A DNA stretch of 43,937 nt from Fidelibacterota bacterium. GTDB taxonomy: Bacteria > Fidelibacterota > Marinisomatia > Marinisomatales > TCS55. Positions 17,018-28,229 of the stretch are shown in pieces. Both the position numbers and the translations under genes were made by a program. Where the stretch lies: assembly GCA_004124385.1 (NCBI GenBank), contig SCKN01000008.1:46648-90584 (forward strand), in the 5' to 3' direction. Within the stretch, counting starts at the first letter, position 1; each line of letters begins with the position of its first letter. Under the pieces are notes generated by a model. The model had not been told where the DNA came from. It saw nothing but the letters and a program-made list of their open reading frames with translations, and made no database searches.

Positions 17018-18295
17018 CTAAAACTTTTGCCCAACTGAAAAGTGGAATGAAGATTCCACTGCTTCACCCTCGTAAAAAGACCAGCCGTAATCCAAACGTA
17101 CATTCCCTGCCATTGCTACTGGAATCCGTATTCCCAAGCCAACACCCAGCATGGGGTTAAGTTGGATAAGATCTTCCCAATTATTTCCGACCACGCCACC
17201 ATCAATAAACAACACAGCCTGCAACCCCATTTCTGTTTTCATTGGACCAAAAGGGGATTCTTGCTGCATGGCAAAACGAGGAACGATAGTTTGTCGGAGT
17301 TCTATAGTAGAAAATGCACTATAAAAACCAAAACGAAAAGGTTGTTTCTCCTGTTCATATAATTCACGTGATTCTATTCTCCAACCACGAACAGAATAAC
17401 CGCCTCCCAGCCCCATCATAAATAATTCCTGATGTAAATCACCATGGATTGAATTCAAGGAAATATTAGCACCGAGTGTCGTTTTACGTTTCCCTTTGAT
17501 AGGCGATATAAATACACTATAAGACTGACTCCAGGATAATGAACTTCCATTTAAACTTAAGTACTTAAAAAATTGCATGGAGTGGAAAATATATATACCT
17601 TTTGATGGATCATTATAAATGTCTCGAGTATCAAAAGCAAGACTGGCTTGAGGTGCAAAATAAAGAAACTTCACAGTTGATGAATCTCCAACAAAATCTT
17701 TTCTTTCATATTCAAAACCGATACTTACTCTTTTTTCATACCCAAAATAGCGACCAATATTAATTTCAAAAGAGGATGTTTGTCTTTCATATGGAAGAAA
17801 AACATGACTAGAAAAATGTTTCCCCACTTGGAGACTAAAAGAAATATGATCACCCAAAATCCACGGATCATTAAACTCAATCCCATATGCATCAATACCA
17901 CCTAGCATACCACCAATCACTAAAGTTTCATTTCGTCCTCTAAAATTCTTAAAAAAACCTCCCATAACTAGAGAATACCCTGTGTCTTCTTCATATTGCG
18001 GGGAGAGAATGGGGAAAAAGCGTGAAGACTCATTTACATTGAATCGCAATTTAACTGTACCATCTTCTAAAGGTACTGCCTGCCAAGAAACTTCACTGAA
18101 GATTCCTAAATTTTCAATTCGATCTCTATCAGCTTGGGCTAAAGCACTATCAAGTGTAACGAGTAGTGGATGTTGTATTTCTCGTTCAATAACGAATTCT
18201 TTTGTGAATTGATGACCTCGAATATCAATACTAGATACAACTTGAGCTGACGCCATCGTCATGGCGACGATGAATGAGACGATATATGTAAACAT
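17018..18295 (-). CDS. Omp85/BamA-TamA-like outer-membrane barrel with one POTRA
   Basis: This 425-residue protein has a signal peptide (about 1-18, ending ASA) and a single POTRA-like domain (about 20-90, VSSIDIRGHQFTKEFVIERE). The rest is a beta-barrel with the L6 motif VRGW near residue 300 and a C-terminal Phe (FSVGQKF). It is much shorter than BamA (five POTRAs), so it is unlikely to be the essential assembly factor. It is the last gene of a five-gene cluster that starts with two cytochrome genes, 14 nt after a lipoprotein gene. It could export or assemble an outer-membrane partner of that cluster. Confidence 0.82.
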   Translation of the reverse strand: MFTYIVSFIVAMTMASAQVVSSIDIRGHQFTKEFVIEREIQHPLLVTLDSALAQADRDRIENLGIFSEVSWQAVPLEDGTVKLRFNVNESSRFFPILSPQYEEDTGYSLVMGGFFKNFRGRNETLVIGGMLGGIDAYGIEFNDPWILGDHISFSLQVGKHFSSHVFLPYERQTSSFEINIGRYFGYEKRVSIGFEYERKDFVGDSSTVKFLYFAPQASLAFDTRDIYNDPSKGIYIFHSMQFFKYLSLNGSSLSWSQSYSVFISPIKGKRKTTLGANISLNSIHGDLHQELFMMGLGGGYSVRGWRIESRELYEQEKQPFRFGFYSAFSTIELRQTIVPRFAMQQESPFGPMKTEMGLQAVLFIDGGVVGNNWEDLIQLNPMLGVGLGIRIPVAMAGNVRLDYGWSFYEGEAVESSFHFSVGQKF

Positions 18296-18309
18296 TAGTA
18301 AATTATAAA

Positions 18310-19026
18310 TTAAAGCTCGAAACCATCCATGAGCTGTTGTTTCCTCAACTCTATCCCTTCTTCTGAATATACATCTTGTATGGCTTGTTTTAACTGACGA
18401 TCAATGCGTCGACTGCTTATTTGGACTGCAAGGTGCTTATCATCAATAACCCTGACAGCAAACTCTGAATCTTTATCTCGGTAGCGATGCCAAGTGCCAT
18501 CAAAATCATTGGGCGTTCCATATTTCAAGAGCACCTTATGTTTTAATACATCATCAGCAATGAGCTGGGGAAAACCCGTATCCAATATTTCTACTGATTT
18601 TACCACAGCATTCATTTCAAAATGCGATGATTCATAATTAGTAATACTATAAATGTTATCTATATTTACAAAATGAAGTTCGACGACTTCGCTGGTTAAT
18701 CGCGTTTTATAAAAGTATGTTATTTTAGCTCTTTTGATGTGTAGTTTTATACCGGAGGGCAATGTAACCTTATCATCCCAATATTCTGCGATTGCACTGG
18801 TATCAGAGATTATTCCCAATACCTCCGGAAGGCTCGATTTCCATGCTGCTAATGTTTCACGATTCAAAACCCAGCCTTTGGGTAAACTTTTTTCAGGAAG
18901 AATGACAGAATTTTCTTTGGGAGTTAATACCAGAATTTCATTTACAACTTCCAGTACGGTAGGCATTTGCTTTGGAACACAACCAATCCAAAATAAACAT
19001 ATAGTGAGTAATGTAGATATCTTCAT
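18310..19026 (-). CDS. Predicted lipoprotein of unknown function
   Basis: I do not recognise this 238-residue protein. It begins with a lipoprotein signal peptide ending FWIGC (C16). The remainder is mixed alpha/beta with no haem motif, and one region (KVLLKYGTPNDFDGTWHRYRD) looks like a small beta-rich domain. Its ATG overlaps the stop of the di-haem cytochrome gene by one base (TGATG), so the two are probably coupled. It is likely part of the redox/outer-membrane cluster at 17018-20875. Confidence 0.75.
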   Translation of the reverse strand: MKISTLLTICLFWIGCVPKQMPTVLEVVNEILVLTPKENSVILPEKSLPKGWVLNRETLAAWKSSLPEVLGIISDTSAIAEYWDDKVTLPSGIKLHIKRAKITYFYKTRLTSEVVELHFVNIDNIYSITNYESSHFEMNAVVKSVEILDTGFPQLIADDVLKHKVLLKYGTPNDFDGTWHRYRDKDSEFAVRVIDDKHLAVQISSRRIDRQLKQAIQDVYSEEGIELRKQQLMDGFEL

Positions 19027-19361
19027 CAGTTATGATCCGGATGTTTTTGACCACGATGACATACCCAGCAGGACACTTCGTGTAACTTCAATGGCTTCAT
19101 TGTATTCTTATTAATATTCATTACCATACTCATCATCTCCCTAGCAACGAGTTTATGTGCATTTTCATCACTGGCGAAATTTTTGATATTATGACAAAAA
19201 TTGCACTTAACGCCTAATTCTTTTGTAACTGTTTTATTCATGTACTTCATAATTTCTGCCTTTTTTGTAAAAGGCAATACACGAACATTCTTCAGCTCAC
19301 TTTTAATTTTATCTTCAGCAAATGCACTGGAGATTATAAGTATACACATCAGTAATCGCAT
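19026..19361 (-). CDS. Small periplasmic di-haem c-type cytochrome
   Basis: This 111-residue protein has a signal peptide (1-15, ending AFA) and two haem-attachment sites, CNFCH (53-57) and CWVCH (98-102). The pattern MNKTVTKELGVKCNFCH, then FASDENAHKLVAREMMSMV, then VSCWVCHRGQ resembles half of the cytochrome subunit of photosynthetic reaction centres (PF02276-like), a module also used in non-phototrophs. No reaction-centre genes are seen here. It lies 10 nt after the porin-cytochrome gene and could shuttle electrons in the periplasm. Confidence 0.88.
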   Translation of the reverse strand: MRLLMCILIISSAFAEDKIKSELKNVRVLPFTKKAEIMKYMNKTVTKELGVKCNFCHNIKNFASDENAHKLVAREMMSMVMNINKNTMKPLKLHEVSCWVCHRGQKHPDHN

Positions 19362-19371
19362 ATCTATTCCT

Positions 19372-20475
19372 TTAAAACCATGTATGAATCATCAATAAAT
19401 ATTCGGGCTTTAACGCCACAGAATTCCCTGTCACATCAGTGTATCGCGCCTGACATCGTATTTCTACAAAGGGAATTGGAAAAAATTCTGCTCCGAATGT
19501 AATACGATTTATAGATGAACCGGATGTATCAATATCTTCATCGAAAAAATCGTATTTAACCTGCAAATTCAAACCATTTTTTAAATTATAGTTAAATTCA
19601 CTGAATGATGCCAGGACCGTTCCTGTAGATAAATATTCTTCTGCAATGTCCACTGCGCCTGTCCACGTAAGTTTCCCCATAGATATTCCGCCAAACATTC
19701 CATTAAACTGAATCAAACCTTGTTGAAGGATTGAACCACCAATGAATCCATTGATTTGACCCAATACCGGCCACCATTCCAACCGTGTCGTAAATGCTTT
19801 TTCATGTATGTATTCACCAAAACCACCGCCGCTTGAACCATTGATAAACTGATTAGCAATACTCTGGCTAAAATTAAAATTGCCAATATTCAAACCAATC
19901 TCGACTAATCCCGGAGAAGATAAATATGGAGAAAAAACAAGACCTTCATATTGCAGACCTTTTTTACGGACATTGCCACCACGAATAAATGATGTGTGAT
20001 CGTCTACGTTCAATCCATATGCTGGCAAATCTTTGCCCGCTTTTACATAACCATTCAACGGAAATCCTGTCCACAACAGCCACATTTCATTTTGACCGCG
20101 TAGAAGATCTTGTACAGCAAAAACACCTACATTTTCATTCACATTCAAAAATGCTGCAATATCCGCCTGCATTGGAAAAAGAGCACTTTGTAATTGACCA
20201 TCATCATTTGTGTTATAATTCAATAAGCGAATATCTCCACCTACACGAAGATACTCATTTATTATACCTGAATAGCTTTCTATACGATTATTCCCTTGAG
20301 ATTTTGATAATTCTAGACTCGCAACTGTTATGCCATAATCATTCCGCAAGCTGCCACCATTGGGGTCCACATGACACACATTGCACGAAACACCTTCCTG
20401 TACGGCAAATCGGGGAAGCGCTTGCAATACAGCAAACATAAATAAATATAGTCTAGTTATTTTCAGCACCGTCAT
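19372..20475 (-). CDS. Outer-membrane porin with N-terminal c-haem site (porin-cytochrome fusion)
   Basis: This 367-residue protein has a signal peptide (1 to about 24). One haem site, CNVCH (31-35), sits in FAVQEGVSCNVCHVDPNGG. About 300 residues of alternating beta strands follow, ending in an aromatic residue (HTWF), typical of outer-membrane barrels. The layout, one haem then a barrel, recalls Cyc2-type iron oxidases, although I cannot show homology; CxxCHV(N/D)P-GG proteins of unknown role are also known. The start overlaps the upstream cytochrome gene by 23 nt. A role in electron transfer across the outer membrane is inferred. Confidence 0.75.
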   Translation of the reverse strand: MTVLKITRLYLFMFAVLQALPRFAVQEGVSCNVCHVDPNGGSLRNDYGITVASLELSKSQGNNRIESYSGIINEYLRVGGDIRLLNYNTNDDGQLQSALFPMQADIAAFLNVNENVGVFAVQDLLRGQNEMWLLWTGFPLNGYVKAGKDLPAYGLNVDDHTSFIRGGNVRKKGLQYEGLVFSPYLSSPGLVEIGLNIGNFNFSQSIANQFINGSSGGGFGEYIHEKAFTTRLEWWPVLGQINGFIGGSILQQGLIQFNGMFGGISMGKLTWTGAVDIAEEYLSTGTVLASFSEFNYNLKNGLNLQVKYDFFDEDIDTSGSSINRITFGAEFFPIPFVEIRCQARYTDVTGNSVALKPEYLLMIHTWF

Positions 20476-20875
20476 TTATCCAAGTTGTTATTAATTCAAT
20501 TATATGAGAACTTAAAGCTGAACTACCTTTCGGCATTCTATCGCCAAAAGGTGGATTGCTACTTAACTTTTGTACGATGACACTTCCCGCTCCATCTCCG
20601 GGTACTATCACAACTCCATTATTCCCTCCAGACATTAATCCATTATAAGAAGACAGACTCAATCCCCCTGAAGAGTTATTTAAATGACAACTGTTACCGC
20701 AATTTTGATTGAAAATGGGTTGAATATCATCATTATAACTGACAACATCTGATGGTTCGATAGAATTATCCGTTTTTGGATTTGTTCCTAGATCAGAACA
20801 ACTCCATAAACAAATTATTATGAATAGAGAGTACCCAATTATAAATGTATTTAGATATGAAAAATGCTTTTTCAT
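20453..20875 (-). CDS. Single-haem cytochrome lipoprotein with CX3CH site
   Basis: This 140-residue lipoprotein (lipobox LWSC, C26) resembles the planctomycete-type cytochrome c domain: DDIQPIFNQNC, then GGLSLSSYNGLMSGG, VVPGDGAGSVIVQKL, DRMPKG and IITTWI-like end (IELITTWINDGA). The haem site reads C59-G-N-S-C63-H64, three residues between the cysteines instead of two. M114 is the probable distal ligand. It is the first gene of the cluster that continues with the porin-cytochrome. A promoter should lie between 20876 and the terminator at 20914-20947, but I see no clear match. Confidence 0.78.
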   Translation of the reverse strand: MKKHFSYLNTFIIGYSLFIIICLWSCSDLGTNPKTDNSIEPSDVVSYNDDIQPIFNQNCGNSCHLNNSSGGLSLSSYNGLMSGGNNGVVIVPGDGAGSVIVQKLSSNPPFGDRMPKGSSALSSHIIELITTWINDGAENN

Positions 20876-20913: not shown

Positions 20914-20947
20914 TAAAAAAAAAGCCCTCCCGAAAGGGAGGGCTTTT
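20914..20947 (-). terminator. Terminator of the tandem-repeat mini-protein gene
   Basis: A perfect 8-bp stem GCCCTCCC/GGGAGGGC (20924-20931, 20936-20943) with loop GAAA is followed on the minus strand by a run of nine T. It lies 20 nt after the stop of the gene at 20968-21195. Confidence 0.92.
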
Positions 20948-20967
20948 CAATCATCTTGGTATGATTA

Positions 20968-25071: not shown

Positions 25072-26697
25072 ATGACTAATAATGTCACACGACGAGATTT
25101 TTTAATCAACCAACGTAAAAAGGCAGACTCCCTAAAAAACGTCAAATCTGACTGGCCCACAAAGCGAGTTGCTAAACTTTATCGCCAATTTCTTGAGGAT
25201 AAACCAGCGCCCTATTATACGCCGTTAAAAGAATATACACCCGTTCCCATTACACCATCCAAAAGACACATGACTGTCGACTGGCATGAAGATGCCGCTG
25301 CTCATTTATTACGCAGAACATTATTTGCGCCTACATTTTCTGAAATTACATCAACGGGCGTTGATACTATGGAGAATACAGTAAGCACTCTCCTTGCTAC
25401 CCAAAACCAACCAGATCCTCCAGGTGATTGGGTAACCGAACCACCGCCACAATTCGATACGCTGACAGAAGAAGAAATCATGGAATTGATTGAAACATAT
25501 TATTATCGCCATTTCCAACTCATCGGATGGTGGATGAAACGCATGGCGACCCAACCCATGTCAATCGTGGAAAACTTATCGTTGTTTTGGCATGATCATT
25601 TTGCTACTTCATTTGATGGTGTATTTTTTCCCCAAGCCATGTATCAGCAAAATTCCGTATTTCGAGAACATTGTCTCGGCAACTTTAGAGAATTATTAAG
25701 GCGCATTTCTTTTGGCCCTGCTATGATGATTTGGTTGAATACCAATTCGAACAGGGTCAATCATCCCAATGAAAATTTTTCACGTGAGTTATTAGAGCTT
25801 TTTACTATTGGAGTTGATAATTATACGCAAACAGATGTTGAAGAAGCGGCTCGATCCTTTACAGGATATGTTACAAATGGCGTAAATACAAATTATAACT
25901 ATAATCAGGCTACTGGATATGGAAGCTATTGGCAGCAGCGCCATGATTTTGCTCAAAAAACATTTTTGGGCCAAACAGGAAATTTTGATGGTGATGATAT
26001 TATCGATATTATTTTACAGCAAGATCAAACAGCACTTTTTATATGTGAAAAAATATATAAATGGTTTGTGTATGAAGTCCCGGATGAGACCTTTGTAAAT
26101 GAAATGGCAACTATTTTTCGCAATAGTAATTATGAAATATTGCCCGTTATGGAATACATGTTATCCAGCGATCATTTTTATAACGAAAATTATCGAGGTT
26201 GCATGATTCGCAATCCATTGACTGTAACCCAAGGTATATTTCGGCAATTTGATATAGCAGATGAAAATATGCCCTTACGTTATTTAATTGACCTTCAATA
26301 TTTTATGGGTATGATTCCAAATATGCCGCCTGATGTAAATGGATGGATAGGATATCGTTCATGGCTTAATTCTATTACGTTGCCTATGCGCAAATTATTT
26401 GCATCCTCCATGACTGAAGGGTCTAACCTTTTTGGGGGGAATTTTGACTTCCAACCAGACGTAATTGCATTCGCACAAACGTTGAGTAATCCCAATGATG
26501 CTGAAGCAATCGTACGAGACTTTGCTAAACTTTTCTTTCCATTACCCATTTCTGAAGCATTGGAAACACAATTACTGGATGCTCTTTTGGATGGAGCTGC
26601 CGTTTATGATTGGGATATCAGTAATGCTGGTGCTGCTCATCGTTTACGAAACTTGATCAAATATATGATACGTAAACCGGAGTTTCAGCTCATATGA
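25072..26697 (+). CDS. DUF1800 family protein
   Basis: This 541-residue protein matches the DUF1800 pattern: AAAHLLRRTLFAPT, then SLFWHDHFATS, NFSRELLELFTIGVDNYTQ and DVEEAARSFTGY. DUF1800 genes are almost always next to DUF1501 genes and are thought to be secreted or surface proteins of unknown role. An RRDF sequence occurs near the N-terminus (residues 7-10), but no hydrophobic stretch follows it, so the export route is unclear. It overlaps the DUF1501 gene by 4 nt. Confidence 0.92.
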   Translation: MTNNVTRRDFLINQRKKADSLKNVKSDWPTKRVAKLYRQFLEDKPAPYYTPLKEYTPVPITPSKRHMTVDWHEDAAAHLLRRTLFAPTFSEITSTGVDTMENTVSTLLATQNQPDPPGDWVTEPPPQFDTLTEEEIMELIETYYYRHFQLIGWWMKRMATQPMSIVENLSLFWHDHFATSFDGVFFPQAMYQQNSVFREHCLGNFRELLRRISFGPAMMIWLNTNSNRVNHPNENFSRELLELFTIGVDNYTQTDVEEAARSFTGYVTNGVNTNYNYNQATGYGSYWQQRHDFAQKTFLGQTGNFDGDDIIDIILQQDQTALFICEKIYKWFVYEVPDETFVNEMATIFRNSNYEILPVMEYMLSSDHFYNENYRGCMIRNPLTVTQGIFRQFDIADENMPLRYLIDLQYFMGMIPNMPPDVNGWIGYRSWLNSITLPMRKLFASSMTEGSNLFGGNFDFQPDVIAFAQTLSNPNDAEAIVRDFAKLFFPLPISEALETQLLDALLDGAAVYDWDISNAGAAHRLRNLIKYMIRKPEFQLI

Positions 26698-28229
26698 AAC
26701 GTAGAGATTTTATCAAAGCAAGTATGGTGATGTCCATTCTGGGTGCCAAGTTGCCGCTTATGGCATTGGGAAAATCACATCAAAATATTCGTAGAAAAAC
26801 AGGCACATGGGAGTCTGATCGTATATTAGTTCTTATTAAAATGAATGGCGGTAATGATGGATTAAATTCAGTTATCCCTGTTTTTGATTCACTTTATCAT
26901 CAAGCTAGACCTACACTTGCTTTCAATGAAAATCAGGCTTTAATGGTTACTGAAGACAGTGGTTTCCATCCTCAAATGGCTTCTCTTTTTCCTATATTTC
27001 AAAATGGTGAGATGGGAATTATTCATGGCGTTGGTTATCCCCAAAGCAATTTATCTCATTTTCGTTCATCGGATATTTGGGTTACCGGATCCCCGTCAAA
27101 TGAAATTTGGACTTCCGGATGGCTGGGCAGGCTTTTTCAGAATGAATACCCCAATTTTCCGGATGGTGCGCCAAATCATCCTGTTGCAATTCAATTCGGC
27201 AGCGCAAACTTATTGGAATTCCAGAGTACCCAGACAAATTTTGCTACAATGCTTTTTGACCCAGAAGTTATGTATGCTATTATAAATGAAAATTACGTTC
27301 CCGGCTCAAATGATCCGCCCCCAGCCACGTATGGTGGCGATGAATTAAATTTTGTTCGTGAATTGGATTTAACAACATTAGAGTATTCAGAAGAAATATA
27401 TGCCGCAGGTCAAGATGGCAACTTAACCGTAGAATATCCCAATAATAACCTAGGTGAACAATTAGCTGTCACAGCAAAACTCATTTCCGGTGGCTTAATG
27501 ACACCCATTTATCGCCTTCATATTGGCGGTTTTGATACTCATGCCGGACAAAGCAATGACCATTCACAACGACTTAACCAAACGTCCAATGCTATAAGTG
27601 CTTTTTTGCAAGATCTGAAAAATCAAGGTTTGAATGACCGTGTAATGGTGATGACAACGTCTGAATTTGGCCGACGCGTTGGTGAAAATGGTTCTAACGG
27701 TACGGATCATGGAACAAGCGGCCCCATCTTTACCTTTGGAACAACCACCATTGGCGATGTGTACGGTTCGCAACCCAGTTTATCCAATTTGGATAATAAT
27801 AACAATCTGTTGGTGGAGCATGATTTCAGGCAAGTTTATTCAACATTGATTGAAGACTGGTTTGGAATGGATTCATCCATTTCACAATCTGTTTTTCAGG
27901 ATACATTTGATCCAATTCCATTTGTGGCAAATCCGTTATCGGTCAATGGTTCGCCTACTGTTCCGGACTCCTTTACTCTTTTCCCTGCGTTTCCTAATCC
28001 GTTTAATCCGGCGACTAATATTCGTTTTGAATTACCATCTGAAGCAAGGGCAACTATACGGGTCTTTGACTTAAAAGGCAGGGAAGTTCAAACTCATAAT
28101 CTAGGGAAACTCAATTCTGGTCAGCATGATTTTAGATTAGACTGTCGCGATTTGTCATCCGGTGTATATCATATCCAAGTGGAAGCGGCCGGCAGTGTCC
28201 AGTCCCAGCGGGTGACACTGGCGAAATAA
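26694..28229 (+). CDS. DUF1501 family protein with C-terminal sorting domain
   Basis: This 511-residue protein begins with a twin-arginine-like signal (MKRRDFIKAS then a hydrophobic stretch). The DUF1501 core, related to sulfatase/alkaline phosphatase folds, carries MNGGNDGLNSVIP, HIGGFDTHAGQ and TTSEFGRRVGENGSNGTDHG. From about residue 430 it has a type IX-like sorting domain (FPNPFNPATNIRFELP, VFDLKGREV, SGVYHIQVEA). It should therefore be surface-attached or secreted. It is co-translated with DUF1800 (4-nt overlap). Confidence 0.93.
   Translation: MKRRDFIKASMVMSILGAKLPLMALGKSHQNIRRKTGTWESDRILVLIKMNGGNDGLNSVIPVFDSLYHQARPTLAFNENQALMVTEDSGFHPQMASLFPIFQNGEMGIIHGVGYPQSNLSHFRSSDIWVTGSPSNEIWTSGWLGRLFQNEYPNFPDGAPNHPVAIQFGSANLLEFQSTQTNFATMLFDPEVMYAIINENYVPGSNDPPPATYGGDELNFVRELDLTTLEYSEEIYAAGQDGNLTVEYPNNNLGEQLAVTAKLISGGLMTPIYRLHIGGFDTHAGQSNDHSQRLNQTSNAISAFLQDLKNQGLNDRVMVMTTSEFGRRVGENGSNGTDHGTSGPIFTFGTTTIGDVYGSQPSLSNLDNNNNLLVEHDFRQVYSTLIEDWFGMDSSISQSVFQDTFDPIPFVANPLSVNGSPTVPDSFTLFPAFPNPFNPATNIRFELPSEARATIRVFDLKGREVQTHNLGKLNSGQHDFRLDCRDLSSGVYHIQVEAAGSVQSQRVTLAK

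Follow-up and report, generated by a model that had tools for sequence, protein, structure and literature searches.

Do the five tightly packed open reading frames on the minus strand at positions 17018–20875 of this stretch of DNA encode a conduit that moves electrons across the outer membrane? The window (the whole stretch of 43,937 nucleotides that was analysed) lies on contig 10 of a metagenome-assembled genome (MAG; 2.09 Mb, 96.8% complete) of the Marinimicrobia, a phylum also named Fidelibacterota, SAR406 and Candidatus Neomarinimicrobiota, whose members occur widely in the dark ocean and in oxygen minimum zones and are usually regarded as heterotrophs. The genes, called A to E, encode a haem lipoprotein (A), a cytochrome-porin (B), a dihaem cytochrome (C), a second lipoprotein (D) and an Omp85-superfamily barrel (E). 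A preliminary description had proposed a conduit in a bacterium of the FCB group, formed by all five genes and with B likened by name to Cyc2. Part of this proposal stands, namely the cytochrome-porin B with its conserved CXXCH motif and 16 predicted strands, and the synteny of A-B-C, whereas the five-gene unit and the name Cyc2 do not. We consider it fairly likely that A-B-C serves electron transfer at the outer membrane, as a module centred on the monohaem cytochrome-porin B, a sister type to Cyc2.

Gene B, a predicted monohaem cytochrome-porin

Both cysteines and the histidine of the CXXCH motif of B are invariant in all 28 aligned homologues, at identities down to 24%; loss of the motif among homologues, which had been named beforehand as counter-evidence, was not seen. 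A signal peptide is recognizable by eye and as a predicted N-terminal helix in the AlphaFold2 model. This model (pLDDT 70.5, pTM 0.72) predicts 16 strands, within the 14 to 18 anticipated in the preliminary description, and a Foldseek search with it gave 16-strand porins as top matches (E = 3.5e-10), including OprP (2o4v) and OprO (4rjw). The TM-scores of these matches are moderate (about 0.5–0.57), and therefore support the fold class of B but not its detail. Mean identity is 0.755 in the haem segment and 0.70 in residues 151–184, compared with 0.53 in the strands. Residues 149–188 are the only long conserved loop of the protein, with P151, G154, D159, H160 and G167 invariant. In 16-strand porins an inward constriction loop, L3, lies between strands 5 and 6, and the predicted strand map places the B loop at this same position. 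Deep clades of the phylum and a Myxococcales protein keep the DDH motif of the loop, which reads SDH in Krumholzibacteriia and is absent from the oxidase-linked B-like paralogues described below. M102 was considered as distal haem ligand of B and rejected, as the strand pattern, judged by eye, points it outward.

In the phylum, a profile of the 28 homologues finds matches in 79 of 245 genomes and 34 of 84 genera; in a few of these genomes only the haem segment or the barrel end is matched, and weakly. Purifying selection acts on the B gene of the window (dN/dS ~0.12 in comparison with its nearest relative). When the 28 members were scanned with Pfam and NCBIfam, only chance-level matches were obtained, which says little because Cyc2-like proteins match nothing there either; a sequence search of the PDB with the B profile gave no real match, and no plasmid homologue of B was found. 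The B-type haem segment (ALPEYAxRTxESCSTCHVNPGGGGPR) also occurs in Chloroflexota-type proteins of ~200 amino acids that have a second CXXCH and no barrel (L098:5887-6486, L099:1012-1704, L100:2314-2907 and L101:4187-4921), so this segment appears to be mobile. Two contigs labelled Gammaproteobacteria/Halieaceae (L089 and L099) are probably mis-binned: their genes include a B-C-E run like that of Marinimicrobia and a protein like those of Chloroflexi.

Partner cytochromes and oxidase-linked paralogues

Gene A matches PSCyt1 (PF07635) with 28 bits (cut-off 22). Its haem motif in the window is CGNSCH, a CX3CH variant and not CXXCH; close relatives carry CXXCH. Among A homologues (L031-L194) the spacing is CX2CH in 34, CX4CH in 12, CX3CH in 6, CX1CH in 4 and CX6CH in 1, and it differs even inside the genus of the window, while the surroundings of the motif are conserved despite these shifts. 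Gene C matches CytoC_RC (PF02276; 61.4 bits, cut-off 22.4) and NF033196 (c_type_nonphoto; 85, cut-off 70), and in the PDB it matches reaction-centre cytochrome subunits (E = 4e-28).

In two species of the window's genus and in another of the order, a B-like paralogue and an A-like lipoprotein lie beside cytochrome c oxidase genes (paralogues at L056:2784-3956, L057:8030-9202 and L189:8513-9664; clade motif EPYxAxRTGYKCSQCH). The homologous oxidase cluster of the window's genome, on contig 2 (G000:C2, L181), carries instead a Cyc2-like protein of 563 amino acids (L181:9094-10785; AIPAFARKHG...CQTCHVSEPKL), adjoining a dihaem cytochrome c and the aa3 oxidase genes; among 61 genomes checked, the Cyc2 signature was found only in this one. 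Both kinds of cluster have in common a dihaem cytochrome (38–40% identity), a 242-amino-acid protein (~46%) and COX1 (42–60%). This arrangement suggests that B-like and Cyc2-like cytochrome-porins feed the same oxidase, and their occurrence in homologous aa3-oxidase clusters supports an electron-transfer role.

Two other roles for B have to be weighed at this point. Electron conduits can work in either direction, and A-B-C might dump electrons on an extracellular acceptor at low oxygen. Such outward flow would suit a phylum that prefers water poor in oxygen and draws on several anaerobic acceptors (PMC5596340), but the operon is devoid of a multihaem surface terminus, B-like paralogues and Cyc2 sit in oxidase clusters, and COX1 is present in 52 of 61 relatives, all of which makes this direction unlikely. 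Alternatively, B might be a solute porin in which the haem gates the pore, senses, or reacts with peroxide, NO or O2, with no electron transfer through the membrane. Most porins do carry solutes, and the conserved pore loop, with D159, H160 and R165, is a possible binding site; the constant pairing of B with further cytochromes and the paralogues in oxidase clusters nevertheless render this role decidedly unlikely.

Relation of B to Cyc2

The sequence AXPXFAR[Q/K][T/Y] upstream of CXXCH has been called a signature unique to Cyc2 (PMC8406198). Our comparison set of 28 Cyc2 sequences was fetched by this signature, which all 28 therefore carry. Aligned with hhalign over the full length, B and Cyc2 give a probability of 98.4%. 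The haem domains by themselves score 38, whereas 30 column shuffles that preserve CXXCH reach no more than 19.9 and the haem families of A and C no more than 19.2; as the hhalign E-values are those of single comparisons, it is these controls that carry the argument. The two haem domains share one register, A-x-P-x-F-A-...-G-x-x-C-x-x-C-H (AIPAFARQTGAACLSCH over ALPRFAVQEGVSCNVCH). On this sequence evidence, the haem domain of B is homologous to that of Cyc2.

It could then be asked whether B is a genuine Cyc2 that oxidizes Fe(II), in an operon that is an ordinary iron-oxidation locus. B has a single N-terminal CXXCH after a signal peptide, an AXPXFA-like stretch, 16 predicted strands and the homologous haem domain, and OprP and OprO, found above, are also the reported templates for Cyc2 (PMC8406198). 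However, the arginine of AXPXFAR is present in none of the 28 B homologues (the window protein reads ALPRFAVQE), and neither is the PXL found four amino acids downstream of CXXCH (CHVDPNGGSLRNDYG and equivalents). A Cyc2 profile gives B only 2–18 bits, compared with 58 for the Cyc2-like protein of the same genome, and the invariant residues that B has outside the haem domain (DH and MQ) correspond to no conserved Cyc2 column. With 367 amino acids, B lies barely above the Cyc2 minimum of 365, and several homologues are shorter (357–363). Lacking both the arginine and PXL, B fails the defining tests of Cyc2 although it resembles Cyc2 in plan. As judged from these motifs it is a sister-type cytochrome-porin and not Cyc2, a name that was too strong; an iron-oxidation locus of the ordinary kind is quite improbable.

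Two units in one gene run

Synteny was surveyed at 53 distinct B loci, of which three lie at contig edges, leaving 50 with room for A. A is directly upstream of B on the same strand at 39 of these 50 loci and missing at 11, and C is directly downstream at 39 of 53; conservation among relatives, on which the preliminary description had made the cluster depend, thus holds for A-B-C. A-like genes also adjoin B-like genes in Krumholzibacteriia and on one contig labelled Proteobacteria. Since the order recurs in dozens of loci and B is under purifying selection, the A-B-C arrangement is not a product of chance.

The distribution of D and E is different. Among 61 relatives E is present in 55, D in 36 and B in 28; E occurs in all 25 genera sampled, compared with 13 for B, and D adjoins E with or without B. 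Several genomes that have no B carry at the same site, which follows a small conserved gene and in several cases adjoins plsY, the arrangement A-C-D-E (G011), C-D-E (G019, G024 and G030), a degraded C with D-E (G012), or D-E alone (G007 and G008). Absence from a MAG can reflect a gap, but the sites compared here are contiguous. Conversely, A-B-C is found without D-E at other loci, and in related families a gene resembling an M20-type peptidase, unrelated to the others, lies between C and E. As D-E stays in place without A-B and A-B-C occurs without D-E, these are two units: A-B(-C) forms a module that many relatives lack, and D-E is an independent, near-universal pair in which the Omp85 gene is a neighbour of the cytochromes. 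A single conduit made by the five genes together, in which the Omp85 protein would aid assembly or export, is scarcely credible, for the contiguous and tight spacing of A-B-C-D-E in the host family is outweighed by the persistence of D-E where A, B and often C are missing.

E matches Omp85 (PF01103; 80.8 bits, cut-off 24) and one POTRA domain (PF07244; 24.4, cut-off 21.3). For D, none of 15 members has a Pfam match above chance, no NCBIfam family was found, and a search of the PDB with its predicted structure (pLDDT 72.9) gave no significant match. The D-E pair, conserved within this bacterial order, could be an unstudied lipoprotein/Omp85 system.

A proposed mechanism

The analysis establishes gene content, homology, conservation, the predicted strand count and the module boundaries; haem attachment and location, barrel closure, and the path, direction and donor of the electrons we infer as follows. 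B would be exported, acquire a single c-type haem at the CXXCH near its N terminus and fold into a barrel of 16 strands. Porins of this kind have both termini on the periplasmic side, so the haem of B should be at the periplasmic mouth. The conserved DDHT...RGGN loop, probably folded inward, would line the pore, through which a small dissolved donor (or acceptor) could meet the haem. Electrons would then pass from B to the periplasmic dihaem carrier C, with lipoprotein A as an accessory second single-haem relay at the membrane. The flow would most likely be inward, to an aa3-type oxidase, and D-E would be an adjacent lipoprotein/Omp85 pair, separately maintained.

Several observations weigh against this model. 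One haem by itself cannot span the membrane. In the AlphaFold2 model the haem region of B (residues 15–72) has a pLDDT below 50, and the plug and distal ligand are not placed. The barrels of B and Cyc2, taken alone, fail to align convincingly (hhalign probability 4.8%). The A-B-C operon contains no oxidase, the nearest known COX1 of the genome being ~54 kb away. Finally, C is kept under purifying selection in genomes that have no B (dN/dS 0.065–0.086, and 0.068–0.154 in genomes with B), which indicates that C is not reserved for B; other partners of C are probable.

More tentatively, and with somewhat less than an even chance in our estimate, the B proteins may constitute a second family of cytochrome-porins with one haem, so far without a name, that parallels Cyc2 and provides Marinimicrobia and at least one other phylum with a minimal inlet for electrons at the outer membrane, B-type and Cyc2-type proteins being able to replace one another in the leading position of the same oxidase clusters. 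The presence of B in 34 of the 84 sampled genera would extend the metabolism of Marinimicrobia by an electron donor or acceptor outside the cell. In the literature searched, of which coverage was partial, there was no report of the B family or of an outer-membrane electron conduit in this phylum. Because B is detected neither by Pfam or NCBIfam nor by the published Cyc2 motif, current surveys of the iron cycle would probably miss it.

Layout of the locus

The coordinates, strand and spacings of the five genes agree with the list of open reading frames, as first described (Table 1): A and B overlap by 23 nucleotides and C and D by 1, with gaps of 10 between B and C and 14 between D and E. The gene run begins at A, because a strong terminator-like hairpin lies directly upstream, and the 3' end of E abuts a convergent plsY. 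It had been remarked that no maturation or oxidase genes are nearby, which is true for the window; elsewhere the genome encodes ccm cytochrome c maturation genes (contig C8) and two COX1 genes, one of them on the window's contig. A 1012-amino-acid protein with eight CXXCH motifs (L191:10009-13047, G000 contig 10) lies beside an aa3 oxidase cluster and Rieske/cytochrome b look-alike genes. Apart from these genes, positions 26694-28229 of the window encode a protein with a type A sorting tail of the type IX secretion system (T9SS), adjoining a 541-amino-acid open reading frame (25072-26697).

Table 1. Positions of the genes, haem motifs and other features of the locus (aa, amino acids).
Feature	Position	Strand	Description and basis
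Gene A	20453..20875	-	140-aa lipoprotein, one c-type haem site; PSCyt1 PF07635, lipobox LWSC by eye
A haem motif CGNSCH	20684..20701	-	CX3CH variant; alignment of A homologues and spacing survey
Gene B	19372..20475	-	367-aa fusion of a monohaem cytochrome and a porin, with signal peptide, CXXCH domain and 16 predicted strands
B haem motif CNVCH	20371..20385	-	Residues 31-35; invariant in 28/28 aligned homologues
B loop, residues 149-188	19912..20031	-	Between strands 5 and 6; strand map and conservation profile
Gene C	19026..19361	-	111-aa predicted periplasmic dihaem cytochrome, half reaction-centre cytochrome subunit fold; NF033196, PF02276
C first haem motif CNFCH	19191..19205	-	Cys/Cys/His invariant in 25 aligned rows
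C second haem motif CWVCH	19056..19070	-	Cys/Cys/His invariant in 25 aligned rows
Gene D	18310..19026	-	238-aa lipoprotein without known family; partner of E, not of the cytochromes
Gene E	17018..18295	-	Omp85-superfamily barrel, one POTRA; neighbour, probably outside the conduit
Terminator-like hairpin	20919..20948	-	13 pairs; between upstream 75-aa-type gene and A

Comparison with known systems

B shares with Cyc2 a signal peptide, one N-terminal CXXCH, a homologous haem domain, a predicted 16-strand porin body and an adjacent small cytochrome gene. It differs in being shorter, in lacking the arginine of AXPXFAR and PXL, and in having its own pore loop (DDHTxFxRGGN) and FPMQ strand motif; its partners are a PSCyt1 lipoprotein and a reaction-centre-type dihaem cytochrome, and its function is predicted from genes. 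Gene A scores above the Pfam cut-off for the PSCyt1 'Planctomycete cytochrome C' proteins, but its homologues vary in haem spacing, from CX1CH to CX6CH. Gene C, like the NF033196 dihaem cytochromes, matches half of the tetrahaem reaction-centre cytochrome subunit PufC, but is a separate protein with two haems, encoded in a non-photosynthetic operon. With MtrCAB, MtoAB, PioAB and PCC3 the module has in common a barrel and cytochromes proposed to move electrons across the outer membrane. In MtrAB and MtoAB, a decahaem cytochrome passes through a separate barrel of 26 strands (PMC8406198); the multihaem proteins of PCC3 are larger still (PMC10734462). The separate large barrel and the cytochrome with at least 10 haems that define a porin-cytochrome complex are not found here, where A and B have one haem motif each and C has two; in contrast with MtrCAB, MtoAB and PCC3, B would combine a single haem with a 16-strand barrel in one fused protein.

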